Notes under the pieces: generated by a model | The model's database searches: none | What the model saw: the letters and a program-made list of their open reading frames with translations, nothing else | What the model was told of the DNA's origin: nothing | Assembly: GCF_013414195.1 (NCBI RefSeq) | Contig: NZ_JAATTV010000004.1 | Coordinates: forward strand, 186,001-250,000 | DNA: 64,000 bases | Direction of reading: 5' to 3' | Source: Psychrobacter sp. BI730 | GTDB lineage: Bacteria > Pseudomonadota > Gammaproteobacteria > Pseudomonadales > Moraxellaceae | Position numbers and translations under genes: made by a program | In this document: piece after piece, positions 1 to 24,854 of the stretch | Numbering within the stretch: position 1 is the first letter of the stretch | How the letters are laid out: every line of letters starts with the position of its first letter

Positions 1-747
1 TCAGCGGCACGCATCAATTCGATAATGGTACCTTTAGGTATGATACTAAAAGAATCAGCTAAACGCTATAAATTTGATAATCCTTACTACGATATCAATG
101 CGCTCAAACAGCCTAAAACGGATATTCAACCATTCACACTAGATGAGGTTTGGACATTTATTAATGGTGTAAGAGCAGACTATCGCAATTATTATCTGGT
201 ACGTTTTTTTACAGGGATGCGTACGAGTGAGATTGATGGGTTGACGTGGGAGAACATTGACTTTAATCGACGTGAGATTGTGATCAAACAAGCTTATGTC
301 AAAGGCAAAATTGTTCCTCCTAAGACTCAAGAGTCTTACCGTGCAATTCAAATGTCACCTTGGGTCTACGATGCTCTGAAGCAACAGCAGACCGTCACTT
401 ATAAGCGATCTGACTATGTATTTTGCGCGCATACCGGTGAGCCACTTGATTATAACAATGTGAACAAACGCGTTTGGCACCCAACTCTTAAGATTTTAGG
501 TCTGAAGAAGCGTAATGCTTATCAGACTCGTCATACCGCAGCAACGCTATGGTTGGCTGCTGGCGAAAGTCCTGAGTGGATTGCCAGTCAAATGGGACAC
601 TCTACAACTAAGATGCTGTTTAATACGTATAGCCGTTACGTACCGAATATGACTCGGCAGGATGGTAGTGCATTTGAAGCATTGGTCAATCGCAGTCAGA
701 TTGCTCAAGTATCTACCGATAAGGGGGCTCACCATGAAGATGATTGA
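1..747 (+). CDS. Tyrosine-type site-specific integrase, 5' end outside window
   Basis: C-terminal catalytic part of a phage/island tyrosine recombinase, which cuts and rejoins DNA at att sites. The frame is open to base 1 and the first ATG at 25 has no convincing ribosome site, so the gene almost certainly starts upstream of the window. Numbered from that ATG, the box I arginine lies in FFTGMRTSEIDGL (about residue 66), the box II group appears as YQTRHT with Tyr in place of the usual first His, MGH follows about 25 residues later, and the nucleophile is the Tyr of NTYSRYVP. The last 14 bases overlap the next gene. Integrases of this kind normally sit at one end of the element they move. Family assignment is secure; the target site is unknown. 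Confidence 0.9.
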   Translation, partial: SAARINSIMVPLGMILKESAKRYKFDNPYYDINALKQPKTDIQPFTLDEVWTFINGVRADYRNYYLVRFFTGMRTSEIDGLTWENIDFNRREIVIKQAYVKGKIVPPKTQESYRAIQMSPWVYDALKQQQTVTYKRSDYVFCAHTGEPLDYNNVNKRVWHPTLKILGLKKRNAYQTRHTAATLWLAAGESPEWIASQMGHSTTKMLFNTYSRYVPNMTRQDGSAFEALVNRSQIAQVSTDKGAHHEDD

Positions 748-1421: not shown

Positions 1422-1440
1422 AACGACATTTGTTGTCGTA
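1422..1440. promoter_or_regulatory. Inverted repeat in the cas1 upstream region
   Basis: Palindrome ACGACA-TTTGT-TGTCGT about 90 bases before cas1, in the only intergenic stretch where the cas promoter can lie. No U-run follows, so it may be an operator rather than a terminator. No -35/-10 pair stands out clearly. Its role is inferred from position only. Confidence 0.35.
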
Positions 1441-2525: not shown

Positions 2526-2528
2526 AAA

Positions 2529-6011: not shown

Positions 6012-6151
6012 GTTATTGGCATGAAAAAAGCATGATTCTAAGTAAATACTTTCTATTTTTTGCTAATAATTACAAATACTTCAGCTAAAGACAGCATCAC
6101 AGATTACTAATTTAAATGACTAAACTTTGCAAATGATAAAAGGAGCTAATC

Positions 6152-7525
6152 TTGAACGATATACCCCCAGAGGCAACCCAAGAAGAAATTCATAACTCGA
6201 TAGTTAAATATCTTGAATATGAGCTCGAATTGGAAACGATGAAAGCGTTTAAAGATAAAATACCCACTCAAAAATCTATTGATAATAAAAGAGCTAAGCT
6301 CAAACCAGACTTTGAGTACCGCTTATGGTTACTATCATTACAAGACTCTCTAGAGTTTATGCAAAACCATGACTTGAGTCTGGCTACACATATCTCTAAG
6401 GGAATACATTCAGCAGTTAGAAGCGATAACTTACTACTAGAAGAATCTGCTACAACTTCTTCTAGGTTTGTTAATTCTTATTGTGTACCAAATCCTAAAC
6501 TAGATGCCAATAGTAATAATACAGGTAGTCATGCTGGACACCTCAAAATCATAATAAATTTTCTAAATATAGAAATTTTAGATGGACGTTTTTATTCATT
6601 AATTAAAGATAAAAACCCTAATATACAAGTTTTTTTCGAACAAAAACTAACCATGGAGTTTTTTAACTACCTAGTAAATTTGCTTAACTTCAAAGTTGAG
6701 CGACCAATAACAGACGGTAGAAATAAACAAACCTTATTTCCAATAGAAAACAACTTATATCATTGTGTCATTCCTTTGTTCCCGTCATCCTTAACGCATT
6801 ATACGCATCAAAATATAAATGAAATAAAGTATTCCAATGCTTCGAAAGAAGCAAGGAAAGTTAGATTTAGTAGTAAGGATGAAAAGGGAAAAATCGTAGC
6901 TTATAGAGATATTCTTAATTTAGCAGTGATTAAATTAGGGGGAGAAAATGCACAGAATGTAAGTAGATTAAATAACGTTCAAGGCGGTTTTCACTACCTC
7001 CTCCCCTCTCTGCCTCCCATCATTAAACAAGACCGCGCTTTTAAGTTGTCTAAATTTGCCAATAGTATCTTTAGCACTGGCATGGAATATAATGCCCGCG
7101 AAGCCATCCAAAATATTTTTAAGTCCATTAATGATACGCGCAATATTGTCGATGTCAGAGACGCGCGCAAACGAGCTATCGATGAAGTGTTATATCAGAT
7201 ATTTGCCGCAGCAGAAGATATACGCAATACCCTACATGCTGGCTGGTCAACAGACTATGAGCTTGACCACATTGAGAAGCTTTGGCTCGATCCCAAACGC
7301 GCCGACCTTGATGGTCAAGCTGAGTTCAAAGCAGAACGTGAAGAAGATGACGCTTGGCATAGTCAAATTATTCATCGTTTTGCGCGTTGGCTCAATACCT
7401 TAATGCAAGCTGAATTTAAGCAAATAGCCAGCGATTTTGGTGATGCTGAGCATTTGGAATGGGAGCGTGAGATTGAGGATATGAAAAAACGCTACGAGCG
7501 CGCAGGCAAAGGAGTATTTTTATGA
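6152..7525 (+). CDS. csy1: Cascade large subunit Cas8f (Csy1)
   Basis: Large subunit of the type I-F Csy surveillance complex, which reads the PAM and helps hold the crRNA 5' handle together with Csy2. The start is TTG at 6152 with AGGAG 6-10 bases upstream; no ATG is better placed. Its 457 residues fit Csy1. The family diverges quickly, and recognition here rests on the C-terminal region (HAGWSTDYELDHIEKLWLDP and the following acidic stretch) and on position before csy2. The last four bases overlap the csy2 start (ATGA), showing translational coupling. No internal stops or shifts. Confidence 0.93.
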   Translation: MNDIPPEATQEEIHNSIVKYLEYELELETMKAFKDKIPTQKSIDNKRAKLKPDFEYRLWLLSLQDSLEFMQNHDLSLATHISKGIHSAVRSDNLLLEESATTSSRFVNSYCVPNPKLDANSNNTGSHAGHLKIIINFLNIEILDGRFYSLIKDKNPNIQVFFEQKLTMEFFNYLVNLLNFKVERPITDGRNKQTLFPIENNLYHCVIPLFPSSLTHYTHQNINEIKYSNASKEARKVRFSSKDEKGKIVAYRDILNLAVIKLGGENAQNVSRLNNVQGGFHYLLPSLPPIIKQDRAFKLSKFANSIFSTGMEYNAREAIQNIFKSINDTRNIVDVRDARKRAIDEVLYQIFAAAEDIRNTLHAGWSTDYELDHIEKLWLDPKRADLDGQAEFKAEREEDDAWHSQIIHRFARWLNTLMQAEFKQIASDFGDAEHLEWEREIEDMKKRYERAGKGVFL

Positions 7526-8493
7526 GCCGCATAGATGATGACAATAGTATTGGTGTGGTTGGCTATTTGATGTTTAAAAAGGTCGTCATTGAAGGAGCGA
7601 ATACTATCTCAAGTCCGCTGACTTATGGCTTCCCCGCTATCACTGGGTTTTTGGGTAGCTTTCATGCGATGTCACGAAAAATGGTAGATGATGAGCTGCT
7701 CTCTGATGTCTGTTTAGGCGGTGTACTGCTTGCCTGTCACGACTGCCAACCACAAATGTATCGTCCTAATAGTTATAACAACTACACTTTTAACCAAACG
7801 CGCAATCCCATCAAAAAAGATGGCAAAACCGCCTCTATAATTGAAGAAGGCAAATGCCGATTGGTGATGACCTTTGTAGTCGAGATATTAGGTACAGATA
7901 CCTTAACTAATGAGCAGCAAGATTATGCCATGCAAAAAACCAAGCAGTGGCTACAGCAGCAGCGTATGGCTGGTGGTAGCGTAAGAGGCTTGGCAAGGTT
8001 TGAGCCCGTGCAATTCTTTGATAAAGATGACGTCAGCTCTATTACTGCGCAATTACTGCCGGCTTTTGTACTAATGGACGCGCAGGACGACTTTGCCGAG
8101 ATTATCGATAAGGTGCAAGCAGACAACCCAGACGCGACGCCACTAGACGCTTTGATAGATGTTTGTACACTACATCATATTCCTGAAACCCAAAAAAACG
8201 GCGATACAAAGTGGCTAACTACCTCACGTAAAAGCGGACATGGCTGGCTAGTCCCTATGCCGATAGGTTATCAAGGTATCTCTGATTTATATGACGCTGG
8301 CATGATGCAAAACGTGCGCAATCCTGAATATCCTAGTCAATATGTTGAAGCTATATATAGCCTTGGTAGGTGGGTTTATCCGCAGCGTCTAAATAGTGTC
8401 GGCGGTGATAATGATATTGCTAATGCGTTTTGGCATTACCTTTATGATGCTGATGAATCACTTTATTTAGTCACTCAAAATCGAGAGTTTTAA
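7522..8493 (+). CDS. csy2: Cascade subunit Cas5f (Csy2)
   Basis: RAMP-fold protein of 323 residues that, with Csy1, forms the tail of the Csy complex and binds the 8-nt 5' handle of the crRNA. The N-terminal strand-helix (YLMFKKVVIEGANTISSPLTYGFPAITGF) is characteristic of Csy2, and GHGWLVPMPIGYQGISDLY is another conserved block. It overlaps csy1 by four bases and is followed by a 67-base gap before csy3, long enough for differential control of the abundant backbone subunit. Confidence 0.93.
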   Translation: MSRIDDDNSIGVVGYLMFKKVVIEGANTISSPLTYGFPAITGFLGSFHAMSRKMVDDELLSDVCLGGVLLACHDCQPQMYRPNSYNNYTFNQTRNPIKKDGKTASIIEEGKCRLVMTFVVEILGTDTLTNEQQDYAMQKTKQWLQQQRMAGGSVRGLARFEPVQFFDKDDVSSITAQLLPAFVLMDAQDDFAEIIDKVQADNPDATPLDALIDVCTLHHIPETQKNGDTKWLTTSRKSGHGWLVPMPIGYQGISDLYDAGMMQNVRNPEYPSQYVEAIYSLGRWVYPQRLNSVGGDNDIANAFWHYLYDADESLYLVTQNREF

Positions 8494-8560
8494 TTTTACT
8501 TTGTTCTAATCAATAACCCGTTCAATTAACTTTTAATTTCTTACAATCATGGAGAATAAT

Positions 8561-9571
8561 ATGTCAAAAACAGCCCTAAAAACTGCATCCGTCCTAGCCT
8601 TTGAGCGTAACCTTGATATCTCAGATGGTTTCTTTGCACAAACAGACAGCCAAACTGCTAACGCTAAAATTAGTCCTGTAACCATTAACGAAAAATCTGT
8701 CAGAGGTACGATTAGCAACCGTCAAAAAAGCGCCATTGCTAAAGACCCTGCCAAGCTCGATGCCGAGATTCAAAAAGCCAATCTACAAACGGTAGATTCA
8801 GCCTCATTAGATGAAACCAATGATACTCTGATTGTAACGTGGAGCTGTAAGGTGTTGCCGTTCACCGGTAAACCAAGCGTCTGTAACGACCAAGATTATC
8901 AACAGGTCTTAGTCTCAACGGTACAGGATTATTTGGATAACCAAGGCGTTAATGAGTTGGCTCATCGCTACGCTAGTAATATTGCCAATGCCCGCTGGTT
9001 GTGGCGCAATCGTGTAGGCGCTGAAAGCATTAAGGTTAATGTTAAATGTGATATTGATGGCACTGAACACGACTTCGAATTTGATGCAAAGTCCATTTCA
9101 CTAAAAGACTTCCATACAGAGGATAGCAAAATCAATGAATTGGCTAAGCTGATTGAAAAGGGCTTAAATGGCGACACTTTTATCATTTTATACGTCAAAG
9201 CCGCTGCCATAATGGGTTATGGTCAAGAAGTTTATCCTTCGCAAGAACTGGTACTCGATACGGGCAAGAGCAAAAGTAAAATCTTGTATGAGATCAATGG
9301 CAAAGCAGGCATGCACTCTCAAAAAGTCAGCAATGCCATTCGCACTATCGATGACTGGTATCCTGAAGCCGAGTTCCCTATCGCTATCGAACCTTATGGT
9401 GCGGTCACGACTTTGGGTACAGCGTTTCGCCAACCTAAAGATAAAATGGACTTCTACAGCCTGTTTGATAACTGGGTATTAAAAGGTGAATCGCCAGACG
9501 TAAACCAGCAGCATTATGTCATGGGCGTACTTATCCGTGGCGGCGTATTCGGTGCCAGCGGCAAGGAGTAA
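8561..9571 (+). CDS. csy3: Cascade backbone subunit Cas7f (Csy3)
   Basis: Backbone protein that polymerises (six copies in characterised complexes) along the spacer part of the crRNA. The start at ATG 8561 (MSKTALKTASVLAFERNLD, 336 residues) is preferred over ATG 8549, because GGAGA at 8551-8555 is a good ribosome site for 8561 and falls inside the longer version. Recognised by the N-terminal VLAFERNLDISDGFF block, the WLWRNRVGAESIKV region and the C-terminal VNQQHYVMGVLIRGGVFGASGKE. Two bases separate its stop from the csy4 start. Confidence 0.95.
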   Translation: MSKTALKTASVLAFERNLDISDGFFAQTDSQTANAKISPVTINEKSVRGTISNRQKSAIAKDPAKLDAEIQKANLQTVDSASLDETNDTLIVTWSCKVLPFTGKPSVCNDQDYQQVLVSTVQDYLDNQGVNELAHRYASNIANARWLWRNRVGAESIKVNVKCDIDGTEHDFEFDAKSISLKDFHTEDSKINELAKLIEKGLNGDTFIILYVKAAAIMGYGQEVYPSQELVLDTGKSKSKILYEINGKAGMHSQKVSNAIRTIDDWYPEAEFPIAIEPYGAVTTLGTAFRQPKDKMDFYSLFDNWVLKGESPDVNQQHYVMGVLIRGGVFGASGKE

Positions 9572-9574
9572 CTT

Positions 9575-10180
9575 ATGAGTCAGATGACCCATTTCCAAGA
9601 AATCACCATCATCCCTGACCCTGAGATTGCCCCTCACTTCATTTGGAGCAAACTATTTACCCAATTTCATATTGCATTAGCGGAGATGAAAAATGATCAC
9701 AGCATCGACTCCGTCGGTGTCAGCTTTCCTGACTATCATTATGACGAAAAGGGTAAATCATCCAAGCTTGGTCTAAAACTTCGAGTCTTTGCTCCCAGTA
9801 AAGAGGATTTAGAGACTTTAGATCTCAATAAATGGCTAGAGCGATTGACGGACTATGTGCATGTGAAGCGCATCAATGAGGTTGGTGACAAAGCCAAAGG
9901 TCACGTTATGATCAGACGCTACCGCCATAAAAACGTGCTTAAGCAAGCTGAAGCATTCGCTGAGCACAAAGGCATTACGCTGGAGGCGGCACTGATACAC
10001 TGCGCCAAACACAAGCAGGATAATAAGCCCTATCCGTATATCAACTTAAGGAGCATCAGCAACAATCAACCCTACGCATTATCTATCATTCAAGAAATGG
10101 CAGATAACGAAACTCAAGGGTCGTTTAACAGCTATGGCATTAACAATGCGGTAGCTAAGGTTACTGTGCCCCATTGGTAA
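9575..10180 (+). CDS. csy4: CRISPR RNA endoribonuclease Cas6f (Csy4)
   Basis: Processes the long CRISPR transcript by cutting each repeat hairpin at its 3' base and stays bound to it. Its 201 residues fit the family. The likely catalytic histidine is His32 in QFHIALAE, matching His29 of the Pseudomonas aeruginosa enzyme, and the LRSxS loop near residue 154 is conserved. The arginine-rich recognition helix reads MIRRYRHK (residues 112-119), so by eye Arg115 and Arg117 align with Arg102 and Gln104 of the Pseudomonas protein. The array it should cut has an unusual stem base, see the CRISPR entry. AAGGAG lies just before the start. Confidence 0.95.
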   Translation: MSQMTHFQEITIIPDPEIAPHFIWSKLFTQFHIALAEMKNDHSIDSVGVSFPDYHYDEKGKSSKLGLKLRVFAPSKEDLETLDLNKWLERLTDYVHVKRINEVGDKAKGHVMIRRYRHKNVLKQAEAFAEHKGITLEAALIHCAKHKQDNKPYPYINLRSISNNQPYALSIIQEMADNETQGSFNSYGINNAVAKVTVPHW

Positions 10181-10358: not shown

Positions 10359-13300
10359 CTTCCTCACCGCATAGGTGACTTAGAAAACCTTGTGAGCTAG
10401 TTGCATATCAATCAGCGCCTTCCTCACCGCATAGGTGACTTAGAAATACCATGCAAACAATTGATATCACAGCCATGCCTTCCTCACCGCATAGGTGACT
10501 TAGAAAATAAATAAGGCCTCAGAGCCATGCTGTGACATCTTCCTCACCGCATAGGTGACTTAGAAAAACAATGAAGTGGTATCAGTGTTGGTTCAATGCT
10601 TCCTCACCGCATAGGTGACTTAGAAATTCAATCTTTGGCTCGTAGTCTGTGACTTCTACTTCCTCACCGCATAGGTGACTTAGAAATCACAAGATGCAGC
10701 CGTATGTTAAGCCTGACTCTTCCTCACCGCATAGGTGACTTAGAAATTATAGTAATCTACGTTCGTCTGCTCATAGCCCTTCCTCACCGCATAGGTGACT
10801 TAGAAATGAAGAAAATATATCAGCATATGTAAATGGACCTTCCTCACCGCATAGGTGACTTAGAAATAGTGCTAAGAAGTCGGCTGGGTGTTTGATAGCT
10901 TCCTCACCGCATAGGTGACTTAGAAATGGTCAATCCGCAGTCGTCGTAAGTTAGTCATCTTCCTCACCGCATAGGTGACTTAGAAACTGAACCAGCCACT
11001 GGCTTTGCAACAGTTGAACTTCCTCACCGCATAGGTGACTTAGAAATGTATTATCACCGTTGAGCAACTGCTGTTCTTCTTCCTCACCGCATAGGTGACT
11101 TAGAAATTTTGTAGCTCGCCGCACCTGCCTTAACGCTTCTTCCTCACCGCATAGGTGACTTAGAAATTGCGCTGCATCAGTTACCGTGACTACCATAACT
11201 TCCTCACCGCATAGGTGACTTAGAAATTTCCAAATGACGCGCATACCTGTATCAATCTCTTCCTCACCGCATAGGTGACTTAGAAATCATTAATAAATAG
11301 ATAGCTCGTATCGTGAGCCTTCCTCACCGCATAGGTGACTTAGAAAAAATAAAAGAAGCGATAAACCATCTTGTTAATCTTCCTCACCGCATAGGTGACT
11401 TAGAAAGTGTCGTCTAAATACTCGCATCTAATAGCAATCTTCCTCACCGCATAGGTGACTTAGAAATTTGACAATATCAAACCTTAAAACTCCATCCACT
11501 TCCTCACCGCATAGGTGACTTAGAAAGTTGGCAATACCGAGGTGCTGACTTGCCATACCTTCCTCACCGCATAGGTGACTTAGAAATGCACTTCATCAAG
11601 CCCTGTGATTTCGTTAGCCTTCCTCACCGCATAGGTGACTTAGAAAGACAGCAACAGCAAACCCCGTATGGTTTTTTGCTTCCTCACCGCATAGGTGACT
11701 TAGAAAATGTGTATATTGATGAGGAATTATAAAATGATCTTCCTCACCGCATAGGTGACTTAGAAAGACAAAGATATTATCGTCTATAACGCACCGGTCT
11801 TCCTCACCGCATAGGTGACTTAGAAAGATGAACCGTTACTTGAATCACCAATGTTGCACTTCCTCACCGCATAGGTGACTTAGAAATTTGTCACCCTTTA
11901 AGCCGGTATCGCCCTTTACTTCCTCACCGCATAGGTGACTTAGAAACGCACAAAGCGCAGTACGAACCTACGGTCTACGCTTCCTCACCGCATAGGTGAC
12001 TTAGAAAGATGAACCGTTACTTGAATCACCAATGTTGCACTTCCTCACCGCATAGGTGACTTAGAAATTTGTCACCCTTTAAGCCGGTATCGCCCTTTAC
12101 TTCCTCACCGCATAGGTGACTTAGAAACGCACAAAGCGCAGTACGAACCTACGGTCTACGCTTCCTCACCGCATAGGTGACTTAGAAAAACAGAGCGTCA
12201 AGAAAGGCTATGAATATTGTCTTCCTCACCGCATAGGTGACTTAGAAATCTGACTGCTCGCCCTGTGCGCTTATCAAGTCCTTCCTCACCGCATAGGTGA
12301 CTTAGAAACTCACGTTTGTCAATGTCATCTGATTTGTGCCCCTTCCTCACCGCATAGGTGACTTAGAAATATGGTGCATGGGTTAATGATGATAACAGCG
12401 ACTTCCTCACCGCATAGGTGACTTAGAAATTGCTGCCAATGCGGTGCTAGTCCACGGAGTCCTTCCTCACCGCATAGGTGACTTAGAAATAAGTATGGTT
12501 ATGATGAAAAATACATGAGGCCTTCCTCACCGCATAGGTGACTTAGAAATGTGTACTATCATCGCCGTTCACCACCTCTTGCTTCCTCACCGCATAGGTG
12601 ACTTAGAAATCTAACTAAATCGTATTTTGTCAAAAAACCATCTTCCTCACCGCATAGGTGACTTAGAAAATAGCTGGCTGTGATTCGATAAACATTGGGT
12701 ACTTCCTCACCGCATAGGTGACTTAGAAAAAAGATGATGTATTGATAGCTAGTATCAACGACTTCCTCACCGCATAGGTGACTTAGAAATGCTATGGCAG
12801 CAGGGACGGCACTACACAAGCCTTCCTCACCGCATAGGTGACTTAGAAAACAAGACGCTGAACAGCGTTGATGAAGCTAAACTTCCTCACCGCATAGGTG
12901 ACTTAGAAATCACATGGGCGACCTGAAGGAGTCTTCAGCAACTTCCTCACCGCATAGGTGACTTAGAAAAACTGCCAGCTGCAACCCAACTCAAAATAGG
13001 ACTTCCTCACCGCATAGGTGACTTAGAAATGAACGATACTTCGATGCTTGGCAGTGGCGAACTTCCTCACCGCATAGGTGACTTAGAAATCAAAAAGCTC
13101 TTGAATAGCCACATCTGCATCCTTCCTCACCGCATAGGTGACTTAGAAATTCTACAGGCTTATAACCTAGTTCTGCCCTAGCTTCCTCACCGCATAGGTG
13201 ACTTAGAAATTTAATGCTAATGTTAAGAGTTCAGAAGATGACTTCCTCACCGCATAGGTGACTTAGAAATAAAGTATCGAACCATTCTTTAGATTTCTTA

Positions 13301-15430
13301 TCTTCCTCACCGCATAGGTGACTTAGAAACGTACCACTGTTAGCTATTACAGGTACTTTAGCTTCCTCACCGCATAGGTGACTTAGAAATTTGCGCTTTG
13401 GGGGCTTCCCTAGTTCATCTTTCTTCCTCACCGCATAGGTGACTTAGAAATTTGATAAAAAATATAGCACTGGCCTTTCCCCCTTCCTCACCGCATAGGT
13501 GACTTAGAAACTAAACTCAGAGAGATACAAGGTTATGAAGCGCTTCCTCACCGCATAGGTGACTTAGAAATAGCCCTAAACCGCTTTCCGTTCTTACTAA
13601 CCCTTCCTCACCGCATAGGTGACTTAGAAAGTCCACTACATTGATCTAGTTCAGGATTAGTACTTCCTCACCGCATAGGTGACTTAGAAAAACAGTGCGG
13701 CATTATCGCGCAAGGCTTAAAACTTCCTCACCGCATAGGTGACTTAGAAACATACCGTAATCGCGAGCGAAGTAATCGCTTGCTTCCTCACCGCATAGGT
13801 GACTTAGAAATAAAATAGCTAAAGATTCAGTATCTAGTCTATCTTCCTCACCGCATAGGTGACTTAGAAAATAGCAAAGACTGCTCTAGCTGCTGTAGAT
13901 TGCTTCCTCACCGCATAGGTGACTTAGAAATGTGTATTCAAATGCACCGTCTATGACGTTAGCTTCCTCACCGCATAGGTGACTTAGAAATACAGCTAAA
14001 CCTACAGCTTCTAATACCTTAGCTTCCTCACCGCATAGGTGACTTAGAAATAGCAAAAGCGTTGATCGGTGTATTCATGGGTCTTCCTCACCGCATAGGT
14101 GACTTAGAAATGAATACGATAGTCCTAGCGCCAGCACACTAGCTTCCTCACCGCATAGGTGACTTAGAAATGACGAAATTGTTTACGTTGAGCCAAACAT
14201 AACTTCCTCACCGCATAGGTGACTTAGAAACATTTGACCCTATGGCGTTATTCGCAGGTGGTCTTCCTCACCGCATAGGTGACTTAGAAAAAACAGGGCT
14301 TTACTTAACAAGCGAGGTAATTCTTCCTCACCGCATAGGTGACTTAGAAATAGACATAACACTAACTCGGTAACTCTTTCTTCTTCCTCACCGCATAGGT
14401 GACTTAGAAAGTATCGACGCGACTCAATAGCGATACCGCCCACTTCCTCACCGCATAGGTGACTTAGAAATATTCTTTGTGCGTGGTGTCACATCACGAG
14501 GGCTTCCTCACCGCATAGGTGACTTAGAAATTGATGCCTTTACCCTTGCCATGTACGCCAAACTTCCTCACCGCATAGGTGACTTAGAAAATTGGCAGAC
14601 ACAAGGCAGAACGGTCATGAAACTTCCTCACCGCATAGGTGACTTAGAAAGTTGTATTCAACACTGAGTACAACAGCCACACCTTCCTCACCGCATAGGT
14701 GACTTAGAAATAGTAGGGTTACTAAAGAGTACGGTAAAAATACTTCCTCACCGCATAGGTGACTTAGAAATGTAAGAATGTAGCAGAAGACCCTACTAAA
14801 TACTTCCTCACCGCATAGGTGACTTAGAAATACAGGTGCAGGTGGTGACACTTTCAGAAGTGCTTCCTCACCGCATAGGTGACTTAGAAAAATGATGTTT
14901 AAGAAGTAACCTCTACTTAGCACTTCCTCACCGCATAGGTGACTTAGAAATAATCGCCACACTGAATAGTCATCATCGCTCACTTCCTCACCGCATAGGT
15001 GACTTAGAAATATAAGACAGCCGATACAGTTTACAGAGCACTCTTCCTCACCGCATAGGTGACTTAGAAATACAGGCTGGGCATTAAACCTTGGGCTGTT
15101 TACTTCCTCACCGCATAGGTGACTTAGAAATAACACGGTGCAAATCAGCGTCTTGCATTAATCTTCCTCACCGCATAGGTGACTTAGAAAATCATAAAAC
15201 CCGTTACTGGTAGTTGCTTTTGCTTCCTCATCGCATGGGTGACTTAGAAAACTATCAGCTCACGCGCAACAAAATTTGAATGCTTCCTCACCGCATAGGT
15301 GACTTAGAAAGATGATTTGACGGACTTAGAACGCGCTCAGTTCTTCCTCACCGCATAGGTGACTTAGAAAGACCATCAAGAAGTGATTTTGCCAGGTCAA
15401 CCCTTCCTCACCGCATAGGTGACTTATAAA
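10359..15430 (+). CRISPR. Type I-F CRISPR array, 85 repeats and 84 spacers
   Basis: Repeats of 28 bases alternate with spacers of 32 bases (80 of them) or 33 bases (four: starting 11947, 12128, 12309 and 13390). The repeat is read as CTTCC, then stem TCACC, loop GCATA, stem GGTGA, then the 8-base handle CTTAGAAA, the same geometry as other I-F repeats. The leader side is at 10359, next to csy4. All repeats look identical except number 82 (15223), with C9 to T and A15 to G, and the final one (15403), with TATAAA in place of TAGAAA; terminal decay marks the old end. Three consecutive spacers occur twice in tandem (11827-12188), so 81 spacers are distinct. Transcription on the plus strand would yield crRNAs with the CUUAGAAA handle. 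Confidence 0.99.
11827..12188 (+). repeat. 181-bp tandem duplication inside the CRISPR array
   Basis: Three spacer-repeat units (spacer starts 11827, 11887, 11947) are repeated base for base at 12008, 12068 and 12128. Copies are 11827-12007 and 12008-12188. The shared 33-base third spacer shows that this is a copy event rather than three separate acquisitions. Unequal recombination between repeats is the simplest cause. Confidence 0.97.
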
Positions 15431-16142: not shown

Positions 16143-17531
16143 ATGAGCATCTTTGCTATTTTTTTGTCTTTATCACTCTTAATATATTTTGCCTATAGAG
16201 GTGTCAGTGTATTAGTCTTAGCGCCCTTACTCGCTATTTTAGCTGTTGTTTTAAGTGGTGATAGTAGTCAAACCATGGGTATTTATACTGAAGTATTCAT
16301 GCAGGGGCTTGGCGGATTTGCTGTGAAATATTTCCCACTATTTATCTTAGGTGCGATTTTCGGCAAGTTGATGGAAGATTCTGGTTATGCCTATAGCATC
16401 GCACGCAACATCGTGGATAAACTGGGTGACAAACATGCTTTGTTAGCCGTCGTCTTAGCCTGTTCAATCTTGACTTATGGAGGTGTATCAGCCTTTGTCG
16501 TTACTTTCGCAATATACCCCATTGCTGCCGCCTTATTTAAGCAGACGAACATACCTAAAAGACTGATACCTGGAGCCATTTGCATCGGTGCCCTAACCTT
16601 AACCATGACGGCATTGCCAGGTTCACCTGCCATTCATAATGTTATACCGATGCCTTATTTTGAAACCGATGCATTTGCAGCTCCCGGTTTAGGCATTATT
16701 GCCTCGATAATCATGCTAGGCGGAGGTATGTTGTGGATGAATCGCCAAACGCGCATTGCAAGTGCAAATAATGAAGGTTATGGAAATCATACGCTAAATG
16801 AAAAAGAGCCTCATTCAGGTATCGACATACCCAATTTTTGGCTCGCATTATCGCCTATTCTCATTGTAATAATAGGCAACTATGTTTTTTCAAAAATTAT
16901 AATACCGCTATGGAACAACAGTTACTTAGCTGACGAAAAGTTTGGTGGTGTAGCGTTAAGTTCAGTTATTGGCATTTGGGCCATTATTTTATCGTTGTTT
17001 TTAGCTTGTGTGTTTGTTATTGCTTCGAGTTTCAAAAGAATAGATAGTGTGGCAGAAAGTTTAAACAAAGGTGCTACCGGGTCTTTACTGCCTATTTTTA
17101 ATACAGCTTCAGAAGTAGGCTATGGTTCTGTGATTGCAACTCTTGCAGGTTTCGCGATTATCAAACAGTCTCTCATGGGCATTTCACCTGGAAACCCTCT
17201 CATATCAGAAGCAATCATGGTTAACGTTTTAGCAGGTATTACTGGGTCAGCTTCAGGTGGTTTGGGTATAGCGTTAGAAATTATGGGCGCAAGCTATATG
17301 CAATTGGCAGAACAATATAATATTGACCCCGAATTAATGCATCGTATTGCTTCTTTGGCTTCCGGTGGTTTGGATTCATTACCACATAATGGGGCAATAA
17401 TAACAATGCTAACCATTTGTGGTTTGACTCATAGAGAGTCCTATAAAGACATATTTGCTACTGCTGTGGTCATTCCTTTAATTGCTCTCATTCTAGTCAT
17501 CATACTCGGTACCCTATTCGGATCTTTTTAG
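16143..17531 (+). CDS. GntP-family permease
   Basis: Integral membrane transporter of 462 residues with about 12 hydrophobic segments, of the GntP gluconate:H+ symporter family, which takes up organic acids. Family hallmarks visible are the N-terminal LLIYFAYRGVSVLVLAPLLAIL, the segment FPLFILGAIFGKLMEDSGYAYSIA, TALPGSPAIHNVIP in the middle, and the C-terminal SGGLDSLPHNGAIITMLTICGLTHRESYKDI. The start at ATG 16143 has AAGGAAA 11 bases upstream. It stands alone between the CRISPR array and the recombinase module, so its substrate (gluconate, hydroxybutyrate or another carboxylate) cannot be read from context. Confidence 0.85.
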   Translation: MSIFAIFLSLSLLIYFAYRGVSVLVLAPLLAILAVVLSGDSSQTMGIYTEVFMQGLGGFAVKYFPLFILGAIFGKLMEDSGYAYSIARNIVDKLGDKHALLAVVLACSILTYGGVSAFVVTFAIYPIAAALFKQTNIPKRLIPGAICIGALTLTMTALPGSPAIHNVIPMPYFETDAFAAPGLGIIASIIMLGGGMLWMNRQTRIASANNEGYGNHTLNEKEPHSGIDIPNFWLALSPILIVIIGNYVFSKIIIPLWNNSYLADEKFGGVALSSVIGIWAIILSLFLACVFVIASSFKRIDSVAESLNKGATGSLLPIFNTASEVGYGSVIATLAGFAIIKQSLMGISPGNPLISEAIMVNVLAGITGSASGGLGIALEIMGASYMQLAEQYNIDPELMHRIASLASGGLDSLPHNGAIITMLTICGLTHRESYKDIFATAVVIPLIALILVIILGTLFGSF

Positions 17532-17589: not shown

Positions 17590-17909
17590 TGCTCTTTTCG
17601 ATAAAGCTCTATCAATAAGTATAAGTAATAGCACGCACTATCGCTTGATAGCTGGAAAATAGCATCACAAAAATCAAAGCCACATGGTGTCTCAAAGCCA
17701 TATAACACACTTTTCTTACCAGTTTAGTAAAACCTCCTAGCTTTCTTATTTCATCATAAACACCTTCTAAATTCTTAACATTAAGACTTTCAGTCTATAA
17801 ATAGGATTGTCATCAATTTTGTCTATGAAAGCTTAAAAGCGTAGCAAGACGTCATTTGCTGTCGCTTAATTCAAGTGTTTGACTTAAAACCTCATAAATT
17901 GGCTTTCAA
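17590..17909. other. Intergenic stretch before the recombinase module
   Basis: About 320 bases of AT-rich DNA with no credible gene. If the recombinase module is a mobile element its left end should lie here, but I cannot find a terminal repeat shared with the right flank (24800-24855). Confidence 0.4.
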
Positions 17910-18509
17910 TTGTTTGCTAATACTCGTAAATTATTAGTGGAGGTCAATACACAGGATATAACGACCAAGTCATCAACTCGATATCTTAGTGGGAAAGACA
18001 TGAAATCACTATCGATTGCTAAGCTACAAACACTCAATGTGCTTGTATATTCAGAAATCATTAGTCTGTTTGATATTTATACCTGCCATATCAGACCACT
18101 TCTAAATAGCCAGGCTATCGAACTTGAGCAAAGTAATGCTTGCTTAAAACTTACCTGCTTTATAAAAGAGGAGGAAAAGTGGTTCTTGCTCAATAACTTT
18201 GAGCTATTTCATATGGCAAAAAGCCCTTATATTGATTTTGATCTATTAAGAGAAGAAGTAGCCGTGAAATATATATCAAAGAAACAGTCTAATTTTGACA
18301 TCAGTTTTTACGAGCTTATTGATCTCATCGCAAAATACAACAAAAAAATAAATATCAAGCTCATTTACACGCAGCTAAACGAGAGCTTGGATCAAGAGAT
18401 AAACCAAAAATTATTTGGCAAAAATATTTTTGCTATTACTACATTTTGTCGGCTTATAAACATAAGTGAGCAAACTTATTACAAGCGACCTTCTGAGGCT
18501 GTTTTATGA
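17910..18509 (+). CDS. Hypothetical first protein of the recombinase module
   Basis: Up to 199 residues from a TTG at 17910; the ATG at 18000 (MKSLSIAKLQ, 169 residues) has a better upstream GTGGGAAAG and may be the true start. No family recognised. The C-terminal 30 residues (FAITTFCRLINISEQTYYKRP) look like a helix-turn-helix, so DNA binding, perhaps as a directionality or accessory factor for the recombinases, is possible. Its stop overlaps the next start by four bases (ATGA), a sign of translational coupling. Codon use is AT-rich like its two large neighbours. Confidence 0.7.
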   Translation: MFANTRKLLVEVNTQDITTKSSTRYLSGKDMKSLSIAKLQTLNVLVYSEIISLFDIYTCHIRPLLNSQAIELEQSNACLKLTCFIKEEEKWFLLNNFELFHMAKSPYIDFDLLREEVAVKYISKKQSNFDISFYELIDLIAKYNKKINIKLIYTQLNESLDQEINQKLFGKNIFAITTFCRLINISEQTYYKRPSEAVL

Positions 18510-20989
18510 CTGAGAATGATGATACCTCTCCCAATGAAGAACACTTGCTGTCGGCACAGACCATTGCTCATATAAAGAATAATAAAGCACTTGTTTACCC
18601 AGAATCTGTCTTAAAGGCTATCTCTACCATTATTGCTACAGTAGATGGTAGTTATGAACGAGATGACGATGCGATTGAGTATTTATCAGAAACTGTCATA
18701 CAAACACTACAAAAAAGGCCAGTTGACGATCAGTATATGCAAATCAATCGTAAAGATTTGGCACAAAAACCATTGATGATGCAACTGCTTATCCTAATGC
18801 AAGATATCGTCATTAAACGGCAGTTAGGTCAAGCAGTGCAACAACTAGTTTGGTTATCCATAGCGATGCACACAGCAGCTCTACTTATCTTTCACAATAG
18901 AAAAACTGACACTGATAATATATTAATGCAGTTTAAACAGGCTCAGTTTTCAAGCTCTGTAAGACGAACGTGGATTTGGCGTGAACTACCCGATTTACCT
19001 CAGATGACCATAAGTGTAGAGTACATATCTAACACCCTCAATGATCTATTAAAGCAGAAAAAAAGTGAGAAAGTAAAAAAAGATGAATCTGATGAAAAAG
19101 CCAAACTGAGCCAAATAGAAAAAATAACGACTGCCTATCAAAATGCGCATACGTTACGCAAGCCTAAACCCGATCGTAAGAAGACACTACGTAAGCGTAG
19201 ACCCAAACGTAAGAAGCCACCTAAACATATTAAAATTACAGCTATCAACTTAGCAGATAACACATCGAGATTGCCCTTAGACTCTACTGCAACGAGCCAC
19301 AACTGGAATACCACGCCTAGCAATGATGCATGGGTTAACACACGTGATGATATAGAACACAGCGCTATCGCCATAGATCTTGCATTTTTAGACGCTAATA
19401 CTGAAAGCTATGAAGGGTTAACCACTAGTTTTGAAGAGCGTATTGACCACTATGAAGCACCCTATGTCAGCTATGGCGAATATCCAAACCCGTTGATCAA
19501 AAACTCTATACCGCTCCAAACTATAGATTTATCGCTACAGCAAAACTACATGTCTCAGCGCAATCTAGCGCTTAACTCTAACACGCGCTTACTCTCCCTT
19601 GCCGGATACCAAGCGTTATTTGCTGCGCTCAACCAAGATGCAAGCACCTTACCAGAATCAGAGATTGATAAAACGTGTGCGGGTATTTTACTGTTATCTA
19701 TGATTACCGGGCTGCCAGTTAAGTCCTTACTAATACCCGGCTATATCGGTCATCCTAGAATTTTCAATCTTGAAGGCAAAAAGTATTACATTAAACATAG
19801 CTTAGGTATTACTAAAAGGTCCACAAGCCAAACATTGCCCGAAAAGGGTTATGAAAATACTTTGGATACCATCAAAGTTCCACTGCCATTGTGGCTTGTA
19901 TATGATTTACTTGCTAGCGAGTTGCCATCAAAAGAAGACTTTACGGCCTATCTTGCCGACTTGCGTAGAAACCTTGGATTGCCGTACCTGTCCGTCAATC
20001 GTATAGAGACCGCACTACATGTCATGCTCTCTCGTTATACACCTAATTGTCATGCACATATCGCCGATATCATCTGTCGCACGCCTGCGTCCCATGCTCC
20101 TGCAATGTACTATAGTAGCCACACCAGCGAAGCACTTATGACACACTATAAATCAGTACTGGGCATATTTAATAGCAACAGTGATTTTGACTTAACTTAT
20201 ATCACCCCTTGGCATAAATATAAGGTAGGCTCAGCGTTTGCGCTAACGATTGAAACCGTTTGCGACATCGTAAATGAGATGAAGTACTGGACTGATCAAA
20301 GTTCAAACGATGAGGAGCACTTTAATAGAACCAGTATTTTTGTATGGTTTGTCTTTTGCCTTTTAACGGGCGTGCGACCAAATAACGGTCTTGGCAAGAT
20401 GTACGATATCGATCTTGATATGGGTTGGCTGCTCATCAATGACAAGCCTGTCAAGAAGGTCAAAAGTGATCGTCTCATTCCGCTATGCCCCACACTTATA
20501 CGCCATCTAACAGACTATAGAGCGTATTTGATTAATTATCAGGCAAAGCACCAAGGTCATCATGACATCAGCGCTATTATTGACAATATCCGTTTGGGTA
20601 ATGATGAAGCACTATTAAAGCTGTTATATGAGCGAGCTCCTAGTGCTAACTCCCCTACTCTTAAAGACATTAAGCGTGGCGATGCTTATCATATGACTAA
20701 GCACATCATTGACGCCAACCCTTATTGGACACGTCATTTTGTACGTACTCAGCTTGAGAAACGTGGCGTTCAGCTTCCACTCATCAACACCATTATTGGT
20801 CATGAAAAAGCTCGTCAAGAAATATTGGGACGTTTCTCATCAAGTAGTAAGGCAGATATTAAGCGTGTAGCGTCCGTGTTTGAAAAAATCGCAGCACAGC
20901 TTGGGTTATCAGATGTCACAATCAATTATTACCCTAATTCAAATCATGTTGGCACAAGCACTGCAGAGGTTGACCATGCTAATAAATGA
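18506..20989 (+). CDS. Large tyrosine-recombinase-like protein lacking a clear catalytic Tyr
   Basis: An 827-residue protein whose last third resembles the tyrosine recombinase fold: box I arginine R624 in LLTGVRPNNGL, box II H744-x-x-R747 in WTRHFVRTQ, and GH at 765-766 in TIIGHEKA. The nucleophilic Tyr expected about nine residues later is absent; the nearest aromatic residue is Phe777 in GRFSSSS, and the remaining C-terminus offers no well-placed Tyr. A lysine/arginine-rich linker sits near residues 213-240. The long N-terminal part matches nothing I know. It probably works as a structural or regulatory partner of the intact recombinase downstream, which its reading frame overlaps by 14 bases. 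Confidence 0.8.
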   Translation: MTENDDTSPNEEHLLSAQTIAHIKNNKALVYPESVLKAISTIIATVDGSYERDDDAIEYLSETVIQTLQKRPVDDQYMQINRKDLAQKPLMMQLLILMQDIVIKRQLGQAVQQLVWLSIAMHTAALLIFHNRKTDTDNILMQFKQAQFSSSVRRTWIWRELPDLPQMTISVEYISNTLNDLLKQKKSEKVKKDESDEKAKLSQIEKITTAYQNAHTLRKPKPDRKKTLRKRRPKRKKPPKHIKITAINLADNTSRLPLDSTATSHNWNTTPSNDAWVNTRDDIEHSAIAIDLAFLDANTESYEGLTTSFEERIDHYEAPYVSYGEYPNPLIKNSIPLQTIDLSLQQNYMSQRNLALNSNTRLLSLAGYQALFAALNQDASTLPESEIDKTCAGILLLSMITGLPVKSLLIPGYIGHPRIFNLEGKKYYIKHSLGITKRSTSQTLPEKGYENTLDTIKVPLPLWLVYDLLASELPSKEDFTAYLADLRRNLGLPYLSVNRIETALHVMLSRYTPNCHAHIADIICRTPASHAPAMYYSSHTSEALMTHYKSVLGIFNSNSDFDLTYITPWHKYKVGSAFALTIETVCDIVNEMKYWTDQSSNDEEHFNRTSIFVWFVFCLLTGVRPNNGLGKMYDIDLDMGWLLINDKPVKKVKSDRLIPLCPTLIRHLTDYRAYLINYQAKHQGHHDISAIIDNIRLGNDEALLKLLYERAPSANSPTLKDIKRGDAYHMTKHIIDANPYWTRHFVRTQLEKRGVQLPLINTIIGHEKARQEILGRFSSSSKADIKRVASVFEKIAAQLGLSDVTINYYPNSNHVGTSTAEVDHANK

Positions 20990-23900
20990 AATACAGCTGC
21001 CAAAAATTATTGATGGCTTAGCAAAATTTGATGGTAGAAAAAAGCGCTATGTACCATATCCTTCGCTACTTAACGATAGTAACCCTGCAAGAAAACGTGA
21101 ATTACAGCTATTAGTAAATCTACAGACCCAGTGGGAACTCTTACTTGAAATACATCCTGGCAACATTAGGTTCGTCCAATCTTTTAATAAATATTACGGG
21201 CACTACGAACAAGTACTTTGGCCAGATAGTCGCACCTTTTTAGCTATACCGAACCCTGTAAGTTTTGCTGATGAGTTATGGTTACCAGAAAGCCAGATGC
21301 TAGGTCAGTTTCAGCGTGATTTTAATAATAAGCTAAAGCCTTTATCGGGCGAAGGGTTCGATAAGTTTCAAGAGATTGTTCAGAATAAAATTTCTCAAGC
21401 TTATAAAACTACCAAAACACTAAAACAAGCATGGCAAACCGTTAGTCAGTTTATCGATTATCAAAATAAGCACTATATGCTTGCTGAGCATCACTATCCT
21501 AAGATAATCGCGCCACAGCCTATAAAGTTTAACCCATTAATTACTGATAAAAGCTGGGTTAAAAACGGTAAGGTGCTAGTCAAAATTGTTCGCGCAGTAG
21601 AGCATAATTGGGAGCAAACAGCCGATTATAGCCAAGATCAGATTATTGGCTGGCTGATATTCTCAGGAATTGTATATGGCGGTATCAATGAGGTGCAAAT
21701 GCTACAATGGTGGCTTACCTCATTGCTCGCCAAAGAGTATCAGCCATTTATCAAAGAAAGGATAATGGTCTCGCCGCGCTTTGTGCAAAAGCGCTTTGGT
21801 AACGAGCGCGAAGAAGGTAGTGACAAGCTTTATAACACCAAGCAAATCGTTGTAGATATGGTCAGTCAGTGTTGGTTGATGAATTACCATAAAAGCAGCA
21901 GTCCAGCAGAGACCACACATATCATTGCCAAGCTGTCAGAAGATAAGATCAAACAATACTTGACCATGGTTTTGTCTGATTTGATCAAGCCTTTAAATAT
22001 TGACTTGCTTCCCTTTCTAAGGTTTTTACGTTACGCCAGTTATTACTGGGAGGGTCTCGATGACGCTGATATTGATCATGCCTCAGTTGGGGTACTGCGA
22101 GGTATGCATAACACTGCAGGACTGAGTACGCAGGACTTTTATCGGTTTTTGAATCAGAAATATCAGCATACAAATGAACCTTATGATCTAGAACATATTT
22201 TAACGCTGTCTATCAGCAAAAACTCTACTAATCAAAAAGAAAAAACTAACATTTCCACCAAAAAGATAGAGGTTAGAAAGTCTGATTTGATTGTAAATCT
22301 GACTAAAGACTTCAAAATGGATGAAAAACAGACACAGCAAAAAACCAGTAAAAAGCCGCCTACCCTTATCGAAAGAGTACAAAAACGTTATAAGCAATAC
22401 GATGACTTAAGTGAAAAGATTTTATTAGATTGGGTACTCAGTTTGCTAAGCCGAAAAGGACCACCGAACAACGTAACTATTTTGAAATATCTTAGAGCTA
22501 TAGGCTATGAATGGTTATATTTCACAACAGCGCAGCCGCTTGATATTTGGTCAGAGGAAGATTTTGAAGAGCTCTATGAAGATATTTTAGAGTACAAAGC
22601 TGTCGTACGTAATAATACTGACATTGTATATTCTGCCAATTTATTGAAGAGTATGCACAATTTCGCTAAGGCCAAATACAACCTACCCTCCGTGAACTTC
22701 CAACATTCCAAAAATGGTCGGCGTGTACGTGCGGAGCTGATATCACCGCAAGCGTACCAAGCCATTATTACGCAGATACTGGGTTCTGTAGATATATTGG
22801 AGCGGGAGATGTTCGCGCTTTTATTTATCTTAGTCTATCGTACTGGGATGCGCAAAAAAGAGCTGTTAGGACTTAAGTATAATGACATCGAAGGTCTAAA
22901 GGCAGCCACACCCTCAGTGGTGATCAGGCCCAATAGCTATCGTCCAACTAAGACTCAAAGTAGTATTCGCCGCGTTCCCTTATTTGCCCTATTAAAGCCT
23001 AATGAACTGAGTTTTTTTATTAACTTTGTGCAAAGTAATATCGGCGGCAATTCAAGCAAATTTATCTTTACCTTATCATCAGAGCAACGCCCTATTGATG
23101 ACCATGTTCCGTTAAAGTTACTCAAACGAACCTTAAAAGACATATCGGTAGATGATAATGTTACAGACCATACTTTTCATGGGTTTAGGCATACGGCAGT
23201 GAGTAACCTATCTCTGGTGCTAGTAGGCCATTCAGATCTCGTAGAAGCCCTTACCGATTATGACGAAAGCGACGTACTCCGCATCAAACAAGGCATACTC
23301 GGAGAGCATATCAATGCACAAGATCGCTGGTATGCTCTCTCAGGTATTATGGGCCACTTATCGCCTGAGCGGAGCTTTGAGTATTACAACCATTTTGCCA
23401 CACTGATGGCGACCTATACGCTTAGTAAAGCAGATATAACATTGCCAGAGCGGACGCTGTATAACGTAACAGGTTTTACGAACAAAAAGCTTAAGGAGAA
23501 TAATGCGACTGTTCGTAATAGTAGCGTCAGCATACCTAGTATTCGTACACTCTTATTTAAAAATATTATAGAAGGCAAACGCAAGTCACCGAAGTTTACG
23601 GTCGAAAGCTGTGATAAGCAACTTCTCTTGAATACCAATACGCCAGCCGCTGATGAATTGTTTGGTCGTTATGGTCTAAACCGAGTACAGCTGCTGTTAC
23701 AGACTTATGATAAAGAGATGCCATTAAGTAAGGCAGCCCAGTTAGCAAATATTTCTATTCACGATGCAAAGGTTCTAATAGAACGTGCCAGCGAGATTAT
23801 CGACATCACTACCAAACGCGGCAAACCTCGCTTTGTTAAGCTATCAGATTCAAATACCCCTGTACTGAGTCCACTGAACATTCAATACCAAAGTGACTTA

Positions 23901-24314
23901 AGATTGCTATCGCTTTTGTTAAGTAATGCTTACCGTCTACGAGAAAAATCAGAGACTGATTGGACTTGGTTTATTGAGATATGTCGTGAAAAACTATCTG
24001 TTAGCAGAGCATACCTACCATTTAGAACAGAGGATGAGAAGGAGTTGCAGCGGTTCATTGGTATTGCTGAGAAACTGCTACCTTTGAAGCGTTGGCTAGT
24101 GAGTAGCAACGAAGATTTATTGATGAAAACTATGTCATCTACTGACTATCGAGATATTAAGCAGCAATCTAATGATTCGAAAAATGCTCTCCATATCGGT
24201 ATTGCTAGTCAAGACCATAGGGAACGGACTAACAAGTGGCAATACTCACCACTACTACGGTTTTTTGTGCATATGATGCTGATTACAGATGAAACATTAT
24301 CTATTGCGAATTAA
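20976..24314 (+). CDS. Giant tyrosine recombinase with complete catalytic set
   Basis: A 1112-residue protein, three times the size of a common integrase. The start is ATG 20976 (MLINEIQLPK) with AGAGG 7 bases upstream, overlapping the previous gene by 14 bases; an in-frame TTG at 20880 would give an unlikely extension. A catalytic domain lies at about 600-820: R626 in YRTGMRKKELLGLKY, H735-G-F-R738-H in the box II HGFRHT motif, GH at 793-794, and the nucleophile Y803 or Y804 in EYYNHF. About 600 residues precede it and 300 follow, the latter with a possible helix-turn-helix (AAQLANISIHDAKVLIERA). It is presumably the enzyme that mobilises this module. Confidence 0.88.
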   Translation: MLINEIQLPKIIDGLAKFDGRKKRYVPYPSLLNDSNPARKRELQLLVNLQTQWELLLEIHPGNIRFVQSFNKYYGHYEQVLWPDSRTFLAIPNPVSFADELWLPESQMLGQFQRDFNNKLKPLSGEGFDKFQEIVQNKISQAYKTTKTLKQAWQTVSQFIDYQNKHYMLAEHHYPKIIAPQPIKFNPLITDKSWVKNGKVLVKIVRAVEHNWEQTADYSQDQIIGWLIFSGIVYGGINEVQMLQWWLTSLLAKEYQPFIKERIMVSPRFVQKRFGNEREEGSDKLYNTKQIVVDMVSQCWLMNYHKSSSPAETTHIIAKLSEDKIKQYLTMVLSDLIKPLNIDLLPFLRFLRYASYYWEGLDDADIDHASVGVLRGMHNTAGLSTQDFYRFLNQKYQHTNEPYDLEHILTLSISKNSTNQKEKTNISTKKIEVRKSDLIVNLTKDFKMDEKQTQQKTSKKPPTLIERVQKRYKQYDDLSEKILLDWVLSLLSRKGPPNNVTILKYLRAIGYEWLYFTTAQPLDIWSEEDFEELYEDILEYKAVVRNNTDIVYSANLLKSMHNFAKAKYNLPSVNFQHSKNGRRVRAELISPQAYQAIITQILGSVDILEREMFALLFILVYRTGMRKKELLGLKYNDIEGLKAATPSVVIRPNSYRPTKTQSSIRRVPLFALLKPNELSFFINFVQSNIGGNSSKFIFTLSSEQRPIDDHVPLKLLKRTLKDISVDDNVTDHTFHGFRHTAVSNLSLVLVGHSDLVEALTDYDESDVLRIKQGILGEHINAQDRWYALSGIMGHLSPERSFEYYNHFATLMATYTLSKADITLPERTLYNVTGFTNKKLKENNATVRNSSVSIPSIRTLLFKNIIEGKRKSPKFTVESCDKQLLLNTNTPAADELFGRYGLNRVQLLLQTYDKEMPLSKAAQLANISIHDAKVLIERASEIIDITTKRGKPRFVKLSDSNTPVLSPLNIQYQSDLRLLSLLLSNAYRLREKSETDWTWFIEICREKLSVSRAYLPFRTEDEKELQRFIGIAEKLLPLKRWLVSSNEDLLMKTMSSTDYRDIKQQSNDSKNALHIGIASQDHRERTNKWQYSPLLRFFVHMMLITDETLSIAN

Positions 24315-24420
24315 GCTTCTTGTACTAGCGTCCTTTGTCATAATGACTTATAGATTTGCCTGATGGCGATACCACAAAAAATATTATTTTTATTAGTCAA
24401 TAACATTCGTAGGAGCTTCC

Positions 24421-24795
24421 TTGGTGCACAACAGTAAATCACAAACCTCTATATCGAGCCTAGATTTTAATAACCTACGCAGACTTATGGATACTTTAAT
24501 CAATCTAAAAAAAATTGATGATCTGGATTCTCTTGATGCTGACTACAGCTTTGAATGGCAAAAAGATGCCAACGAAATGATTGATGGCATCAATCAGTAT
24601 GTCGAGCAAACTTTATCTAGTCTAGAATCAGAGAGCTACCAAAATGCTCACTGCAGTCTTACTTCTTTGAGAATACGCCTACAAGAGCTAAGGGGTACAA
24701 TAGATGGGATTACTAACGATGCCATTTTAATGAATTGTGATAATGAAGAATTTACTTGGCCACCATTGAGTGAAGAGTGTCGTCTTCTTGAGTGA
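24421..24795 (+). CDS. Small hypothetical protein ending the recombinase module
   Basis: 124 residues from TTG 24421 (or GTG 24424), with AGGAG at about 24411. Acidic and helical, with no motif I recognise. It follows the giant recombinase by 106 bases on the same strand. In layout this recalls transposons of the Tn554 type, where two tyrosine recombinases are followed by a small accessory protein of similar size (TnpC), but sequence relatedness is not evident, so the comparison is only structural. Confidence 0.6.
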   Translation: MVHNSKSQTSISSLDFNNLRRLMDTLINLKKIDDLDSLDADYSFEWQKDANEMIDGINQYVEQTLSSLESESYQNAHCSLTSLRIRLQELRGTIDGITNDAILMNCDNEEFTWPPLSEECRLLE

Positions 24796-24854
24796 AGAGG
24801 CTGAGCAATGCTAGATATTCATAGAATTATACCTTTGTTGCGACACACTATAAC

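Follow-up and report, generated by a model that had tools for sequence, protein, structure and literature searches.

A stretch of 64,000 nucleotides from Psychrobacter sp. BI730 (contig NZ_JAATTV010000004.1, positions 186,001 to 250,000; the whole of it is called the window below) contains three overlapping genes, named here S1, A and B, the last of which encodes a giant tyrosine recombinase. One way to understand this trio, to which we give a probability of roughly 0.55, is as the recombination module of integrative, often defence-bearing islands centred on the Moraxellaceae. That a three-gene recombinase module recurs at the edges of defence-bearing islands is real; that S1-A-B confers mobility on these islands is likely, judging from sequence comparison. 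The genes, and a fourth that follows them, are as follows.

18000..18509, forward strand: S1, small accessory gene with no known domain; 169 amino acids from ATG, 199 from TTG 17910.
18506..20989, forward strand: A, recombinase-like protein without the catalytic tyrosine; 827 amino acids; assigned by alignment and a weak Phage_integrase match.
20976..24314, forward strand: B, giant tyrosine recombinase; 1112 amino acids from ATG 20976, 1144 from TTG 20880.
24421..24795, forward strand: S4, 124 amino acids, extra gene specific to the window; absent from related loci, with a degenerate remnant in locus L074.

The four open reading frames were confirmed at 17910-18509, 18506-20989, 20880-24314 and 24421-24795, and the initial annotation was right about the 827 and 1112 residues of the two large proteins and the overlap of their genes: S1 and A share 4 bp, A and B 14 bp, in operon-like fashion. 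For S1, alignments of relatives make the ATG at 18000 a likelier start than the TTG at 17910. The ATG at 20976 is present in all 14 full-length relatives of B listed; because it is conserved, the stops reported inside many B homologues, which were not mapped singly, are judged to sit 5′ of the true start. In the records examined, database annotation of the trio genes goes no further than ‘hypothetical protein’ and ‘site-specific integrase’.

All four genes had been taken for one module, the first encoding a helix-turn-helix-like protein. The four-gene unit is rejected, as S4 is not conserved with the other three: tblastn (E ≤ 1e-5) finds it in 0/20 related loci, and scanning the window together with 52 loci by motif finds it in the window and as the L074 fragment only. 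In that locus (genome G060, L074 1790-1952 against window 24694-24855), the degenerate end of S4 adjoins the same 3′ end of a DUF3726 gene as in the window, with 74% identity over 213 bp; the trio fragments of G060 lie on other contigs. Domain searches place S1 in no Pfam or NCBIfam family and find no convincing domain in S4; the helix-turn-helix label is unsupported, since S1 has no recognised domain.

B carries every catalytic residue by which the tyrosine recombinase superfamily is recognised: R626, K659, H735, R738, H794 and Y804 are invariant in 18/18 aligned members, and the Pfam Phage_integrase match (E=3.8e-9) is over the cut-off. The match of A to the same model is weak and under the cut-off (E=0.0051); in its family 5 of 16 members match at E ≤ 0.05, the best at 3.5e-4. 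R624, K647 and H744 of A are invariant across 16 aligned proteins, and R747 and H766 nearly so; the tyrosine is present at the expected site in none of 15 full-length members, and a serine-rich stretch is conserved there. As the Arg, Lys, His, Arg and His are kept and the tyrosine is lost, A looks like a recombinase able to bind but not cleave DNA. Profile searches against solved structures gave no match, and hhalign of A against B gave a probability of 4.7%, with no significant match. The two giant recombinases first proposed thus come down to one complete enzyme and one protein without the tyrosine, for which the domain evidence is weak.

The gene set recurs widely. Among 20 close Psychrobacter loci, searched by tblastn with the window proteins, the order S1-A-B is kept in every one; among 20 more distant Psychrobacter loci, chosen from weak B matches, all three genes are found in 18, the other two (L158, L160) having part of B only. 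The genome of the window itself holds a second, very diverged copy on contig C16 (L033 38-6052), with the genes in the same order, at ~24-34% identity. Acinetobacter plasmids supply one complete set (L107), one A and B with a weak, interrupted S1 (L105) and one short A (L106). A plasmid of Vibrio cyclitrophicus (L206) carries genes for 197, 743 and 995 amino acids, of which the middle one matches A. In Aeromonas caviae (L191) the corresponding sizes are 209, 790 and 1120; A and B are confirmed there by profile and the small gene is not. In that locus (2906-11583) the trio faces, ~1.3 kb away, an integrase gene 51% identical to c4, the phage-type integrase gene at the left edge of the window; the pair is perhaps a near-minimal element, and no tRNA gene or long flanking direct repeat was found in the region.

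A protein search finds B in 75 of the 105 genomes of the genus. By profile (1e-10), B is present in 163/348 Moraxellaceae genomes, spread over 6 of 16 genera, and in 4 of 369 evenly drawn Gammaproteobacteria, its own genome included. Matches on 259 of 72,556 plasmid records are Acinetobacter in 255 cases, none spanning 80% of the query; no match occurs in 50,697 phage records. In G058 and G093, B shares 95% identity with that of the window, A 65% and S1 51-53%; G094 is the reverse case, with A at 95% and B at 84%. S1, A and B have been exchanged piecemeal.

Short sequences, two of them with dyad symmetry, stand near the trio and the cas genes.

17849..17865, no strand assigned: att2, dyad ACGTCA-TTTGC-TGTCGC upstream of S1, candidate attachment core; 18/21 loci.
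1423..1439, no strand assigned: att1, related dyad ACGACA-TTTGT-TGTCGT between c5 (a small gene following c4) and cas1.
24840..24845, no strand assigned: GCGACA, possible inverted right-end half-site; weak, a 6-mer only; DUF3726 homology begins just after it.

The pattern [GA]CGTCA-N5-TG[TA]CG[CT] lies upstream of S1 in 18 of the 21 window-type loci. Its arms are near-constant (mean pairwise difference 0.09 and 0.11), compared with 0.57 for the spacer and 0.40-0.48 for the flanks, and the 5-bp spacer takes 15 distinct forms among the 18. Selection by the pattern applies to the arms; it does not apply to the occurrence of the pattern at one place in 18 of the 21 loci. A dyad of this kind also lies between c5 and cas1 in the window genome (G000), G010, G009 and G052, after c5 in G057, before a cas1 remnant in G101 and, degenerate, in G050 and G076; it was not seen in G035, G083, G069, G094 and G075. 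In the window the two dyads bracket the type I-F CRISPR-Cas block and a gntP gene. The last CRISPR repeat of G052 ends at 19412 and its S1 dyad starts at 19420; with that gap of 8 bp, the two dyads there bracket just CRISPR-Cas and its array. The pattern is rare: 12 matches across 1.82 Mb of further Psychrobacter sequence, some of it overlapping, where a simple shuffle leads one to expect 1.2 per Mb. Nine of the 12 are known dyad sites (L062 by position only) and three are unexplained; one further unassigned match lies in L044.

We take the dyad before S1 as a candidate attachment site. A second perspective makes it the operator by which the S1-A-B operon regulates itself: symmetric arms with a variable spacer also suit a repressor, and the dyad lies ~150 bp before the S1 start codon. 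We hold this doubtful, as the left neighbour in G052 changes 8 bp before the dyad, a similar dyad lies before cas1, where the flank common to many genomes ends, and the pattern is rare elsewhere, most of its matches being the same sites.

In our preferred reading the trio would adjoin its own attachment site, the dyad, with crossover there; B would be the strand-cleaving enzyme; A, the catalytically incomplete partner, would probably bind and position DNA ends; S1 would serve as a small accessory factor. Recombination of the S1 dyad with a second site would then insert, excise or exchange the adjoining cargo.

Distant copies of the trio also have sharp left ends. In L153, L156 and L163 common sequence starts ~330 bp before S1, with different sequence leftward in each; 32-36 bp after B, the sequence of L153 diverges from that of L156 and L163. 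In another subfamily, five loci (L148, L149, L151, L157, L167) begin with a 15-bp piece of a tRNA-Gly gene, and in L148, L151 and L157 a 3′ remnant of tRNA-Gly stands directly left of that piece. Rightward reading from four of these loci met a complete tRNA-Gly(GCC) at 66 kb in G030 and at ~40 kb in G102; the tRNA-Gly repeat is present at both ends in G030, and the left end in G102 has the 15 bp only. No complete tRNA-Gly was met in the 71 and 79 kb read rightward in G009 and G064. To the left of S1, distant loci have a c5-like gene in seven cases and a c6-like gene in one.

Other features of the window help to place the trio.

1..747, forward strand: c4, 3′ part of a gene for a 401-amino-acid phage-type (DUF3596-like) integrase; the gene's start lies left of the window.
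662-1024 and 948-1355, forward strand: c6 and c5, small genes after c4, linked to c4 in relatives.
1530..10180, forward strand: type I-F cas1, cas2-3 and csy1-4.
10359..15430, forward strand: CRISPR array, 84 repeats by scan and one more visible near 15223.
16143..17531, forward strand: GntP-like permease gene, between the array and the trio; adjoins gst in the trio-free G048.

The window-type trio occupies one hotspot, that at hemB-gst. By hand count, B (counting matches of some length with 49% identity or more) lies within ~50 kb of gst in 21 of the 22 genomes that have both on one contig; the exception is a B fragment in G017, ~514 kb from gst. The common left flank runs hemB, gst, c4, c6, c5, beyond which the content varies. 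Genomes without the trio have other genes after gst, G048 having gntP directly. Set against G048, the window has two insertions: one of ~16.3 kb (-831 to 15466), with c4-c6-c5 and the I-F CRISPR-Cas system, and one of 30.1 kb (17532 to 47658), with S1-A-B-S4, the DUF3726/transporter operon and more. The initial annotation had proposed to look for the same genes in other genomes and for an insertion boundary here; the genes do recur together, and boundaries exist in the G048 comparison, at the left ends of distant copies and in the tRNA-Gly-bounded islands, so that neither ground it gave for abandoning the idea applies.

Two insertion targets were considered and set aside. In 14 of 15 loci, homology to the DUF3726 locus of other genomes starts at 24848-24862; the 3′ end of DUF3726 was dropped as a target because G076 has the same operon as an extra hotspot copy with another junction, and it is kept merely as the point where homology stops. 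This DUF3726/transporter operon (window 24855-33384; L047, L081) adjoins the trio in the window, and its likeness to the G076 copy ends both near 33375 and at the stop of DUF3726, as though it had travelled as a block. In G050 and G029 (among L076, L077, L078 and L080) a tRNA-Ser-like gene adjoins DUF3726; in G051 and G021 that gene is reduced to its 3′ part, as if another island had inserted. Nor is the CRISPR array claimed as a target: it lies within 3 kb upstream of S1 in 5 of 20 loci, or 6 of 21 counting the window, the other 15 being without it. The cas genes are gone from G101 and G050 (L046 478-2577; L111, L043), where a 5′ remnant of cas1 runs into the array. Farther right, window 39659-39775 matches the ALIL pseudoknot (Rfam RF01497), a frameshift signal known from IS3-type insertion sequences.

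Defence genes accompany the trio in the islands examined. They were typed with PADLOC models on proteins picked from the islands, and the counts are no enrichment test, as no control region was scanned. The G102 island has DISARM (DrmA, DrmB) and Zorya type I (ZorA, B, C); that of G030 has type III-B (Cas10, Cmr3, CARF nuclease) and type I-E (Cas3, Cas8e, Cas7e, Cas1e) systems. At the hotspot, the slot from c5 to S1 holds I-F genes in the window, I-C cas genes in G076 and a type I restriction system in G069. Two of the 10 proteins in each of the G102 and G030 scans, and one of nine in the slot scan, had no match, and some matches are weak. Cargo right of B in G052 and G050 is, by eye, transport genes and giant surface proteins, not defence. 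Very large open reading frames stand beside the trio in L045, L043 and L053, reaching ~4000 amino acids in G057 and, across masked letters, in G052; these may encode surface proteins accompanied by type I secretion genes.

Two further readings start from this cargo. As the slot holds I-F or I-C CRISPR-Cas or type I restriction according to the genome, the trio might be a slot-exchange machine for immunity, which would recombine the paired dyads (after c5 and before S1) and swap whole defence operons in the manner of a large-scale integron; we think this distinctly unlikely. Less probable still is that the trio, lying among defence genes, acts in its own right against phages or in regulation and not in mobility: none of the PADLOC models matches S1, A, B or S4, the residues of B are those of a standard recombinase, and sharp ends and tRNA-Gly junctions fit mobility.

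Several observations weigh against S1-A-B as the module that moves the islands. Three of the 21 window-type loci (L051, L052, L053) are without the dyad, and in the stretches read no dyad was seen right of B, except the known c5-side site in G057. In the G048 comparison ~317 bp separate the dyad from the left junction, which lies outside it, and the 30-kb insertion is composite, because 40098-47204 is present elsewhere in G048. The comparison of occupied and empty sites called for at the outset yielded the G048 junctions, and no clean empty site for the distant copies L153, L033 and L156 (in 10, 10 and 12 genomes). A is split into pieces in 3 of the 20 close loci (L042, L045, L048). Structure predictions for A and B are unusable (mean predicted local distance difference test score, pLDDT, 39.2 and 36.1). 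Excision, a circular form or transfer has not been observed.

To these is added the presence of c4. It is found, with c6 and c5, in 10/10 long window-type stretches, where it could move the islands alone. In both G030 and G102 the complete tRNA-Gly adjoins homologues of c6 and c5 and a c4-type integrase, which is 65% identical in G030 and split in G102, so that c4 could move these islands too. On such evidence S1-A-B would be a passenger of unspecified role, at the far end of the island or inside it. That c4 faces the trio in Aeromonas suits this scenario, as do c4-like integrases with no reported trio, e.g. on a 12.4-kb plasmid of Acinetobacter lwoffii (neighbourhood not read). It meets difficulties elsewhere: tblastn (1e-8) finds no c4 in the 71-kb stretch of G009, the 79-kb stretch of G064 or the 13-21 kb around the Acinetobacter and Vibrio trios, and sharp left ends go with the trio itself, beside varied neighbours. 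Among 19 shorter window-type stretches c4 is present in three, the flanks being mostly too short to reach its position. We consider the passenger scenario less likely than not, yet a serious rival; in our preferred reading S1-A-B, rather than the nearby c4, would move the DNA.

If that is so, CRISPR, DISARM, Zorya and restriction systems pass between genomes and plasmids with the help of a recombinase system that is common in both Psychrobacter and Acinetobacter. The trio would also be a further case, after the elements known as SE and GInt, of an incomplete recombinase kept beside an active one, in a setting of three genes that would allow a direct test of what the incomplete partner does. 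No paper was recognised as describing the trio among those listed by a search that left preprints and most subscription journals outside.

Among known systems, islands of phage-type (DUF3596) integrases normally need one integrase. They are like the present islands in that c4-c6-c5 lies in the same islands, tRNA-bounded in two of them, and differ in that S1-A-B is additional to the integrase. The other kinds were compared by published description. RIT elements likewise have three adjacent genes, but all are recombinases of 315-410 amino acids with the catalytic tyrosine (PMC10214605), whereas the trio has proteins of 169, 827 and 1112 amino acids and one tyrosine. The likeness to Tn554 (tnpA-tnpB-tnpC) drawn by the initial annotation survives as a loose resemblance, a small accessory protein with large recombinases; as described, however, Tn554 has two complete recombinases, a small third gene at the end and no tyrosine-less partner (PMC10214605), and here only B is complete.

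GInt comes closer: a recombinase operon sits at one end of an island in a site-specific location, cargo follows right after the last gene, and one recombinase has an incomplete catalytic set (PMC5385486). Direct repeats on both flanks and excision as a circle also characterise GInt. The trio shows the sharp left end and the cargo after B, and the right end of the window-type islands was not found in the stretches read. GInt has three recombinase genes and a small fourth, ginD, in place of a small gene, a tyrosine-less A and an active giant B; its GinC is reported to be without the first arginine (PMC5385486), whereas A is instead without the tyrosine. SE elements pair an incomplete recombinase-fold protein with a recombinase whose N-terminus is very long; their genes overlap, their hosts are Gammaproteobacteria, and their ends are made of a short variable spacer between inverted repeats (PMC10214605, PMC9345347). 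Their movement is a strand-biased copy-out that leaves no empty site. They differ in the core intA-tfp-intB-srap, for which the trio has S1 in place of intA and no conserved gene after B; A keeps its Arg, Lys, His, Arg and His; and the SE repeats are of 13-19 bp with a 6-bp spacer, against 6-bp arms and a 5-bp spacer, at the left end only, for the dyad. SE reference proteins were not found on pAQU1 (150 of 204 kb, by annotation).

These likenesses allow the trio to be seen as an SE or GInt lineage that has diverged and has replaced or lost its remaining genes. Such descent is suited by the pairing of a tyrosine-less recombinase with an active one that has a long N-terminus, by the overlap of genes, and by an operon at one end with cargo after it (PMC5385486, PMC10214605, PMC9345347), and SE members are reported to be only 20-27% identical among themselves. 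The trio has no first gene like intA or ginA and no conserved last gene like srap or ginD, and Psychrobacter, where the trio is common, goes unnamed in the main text of a survey of SE hosts. We regard this descent as possible, while leaning against it. In layout and logic the nearest known kinds are GInt and SE; in gene content the trio falls outside the definitions of both, with a small gene, a tyrosine-less partner and one active giant recombinase.

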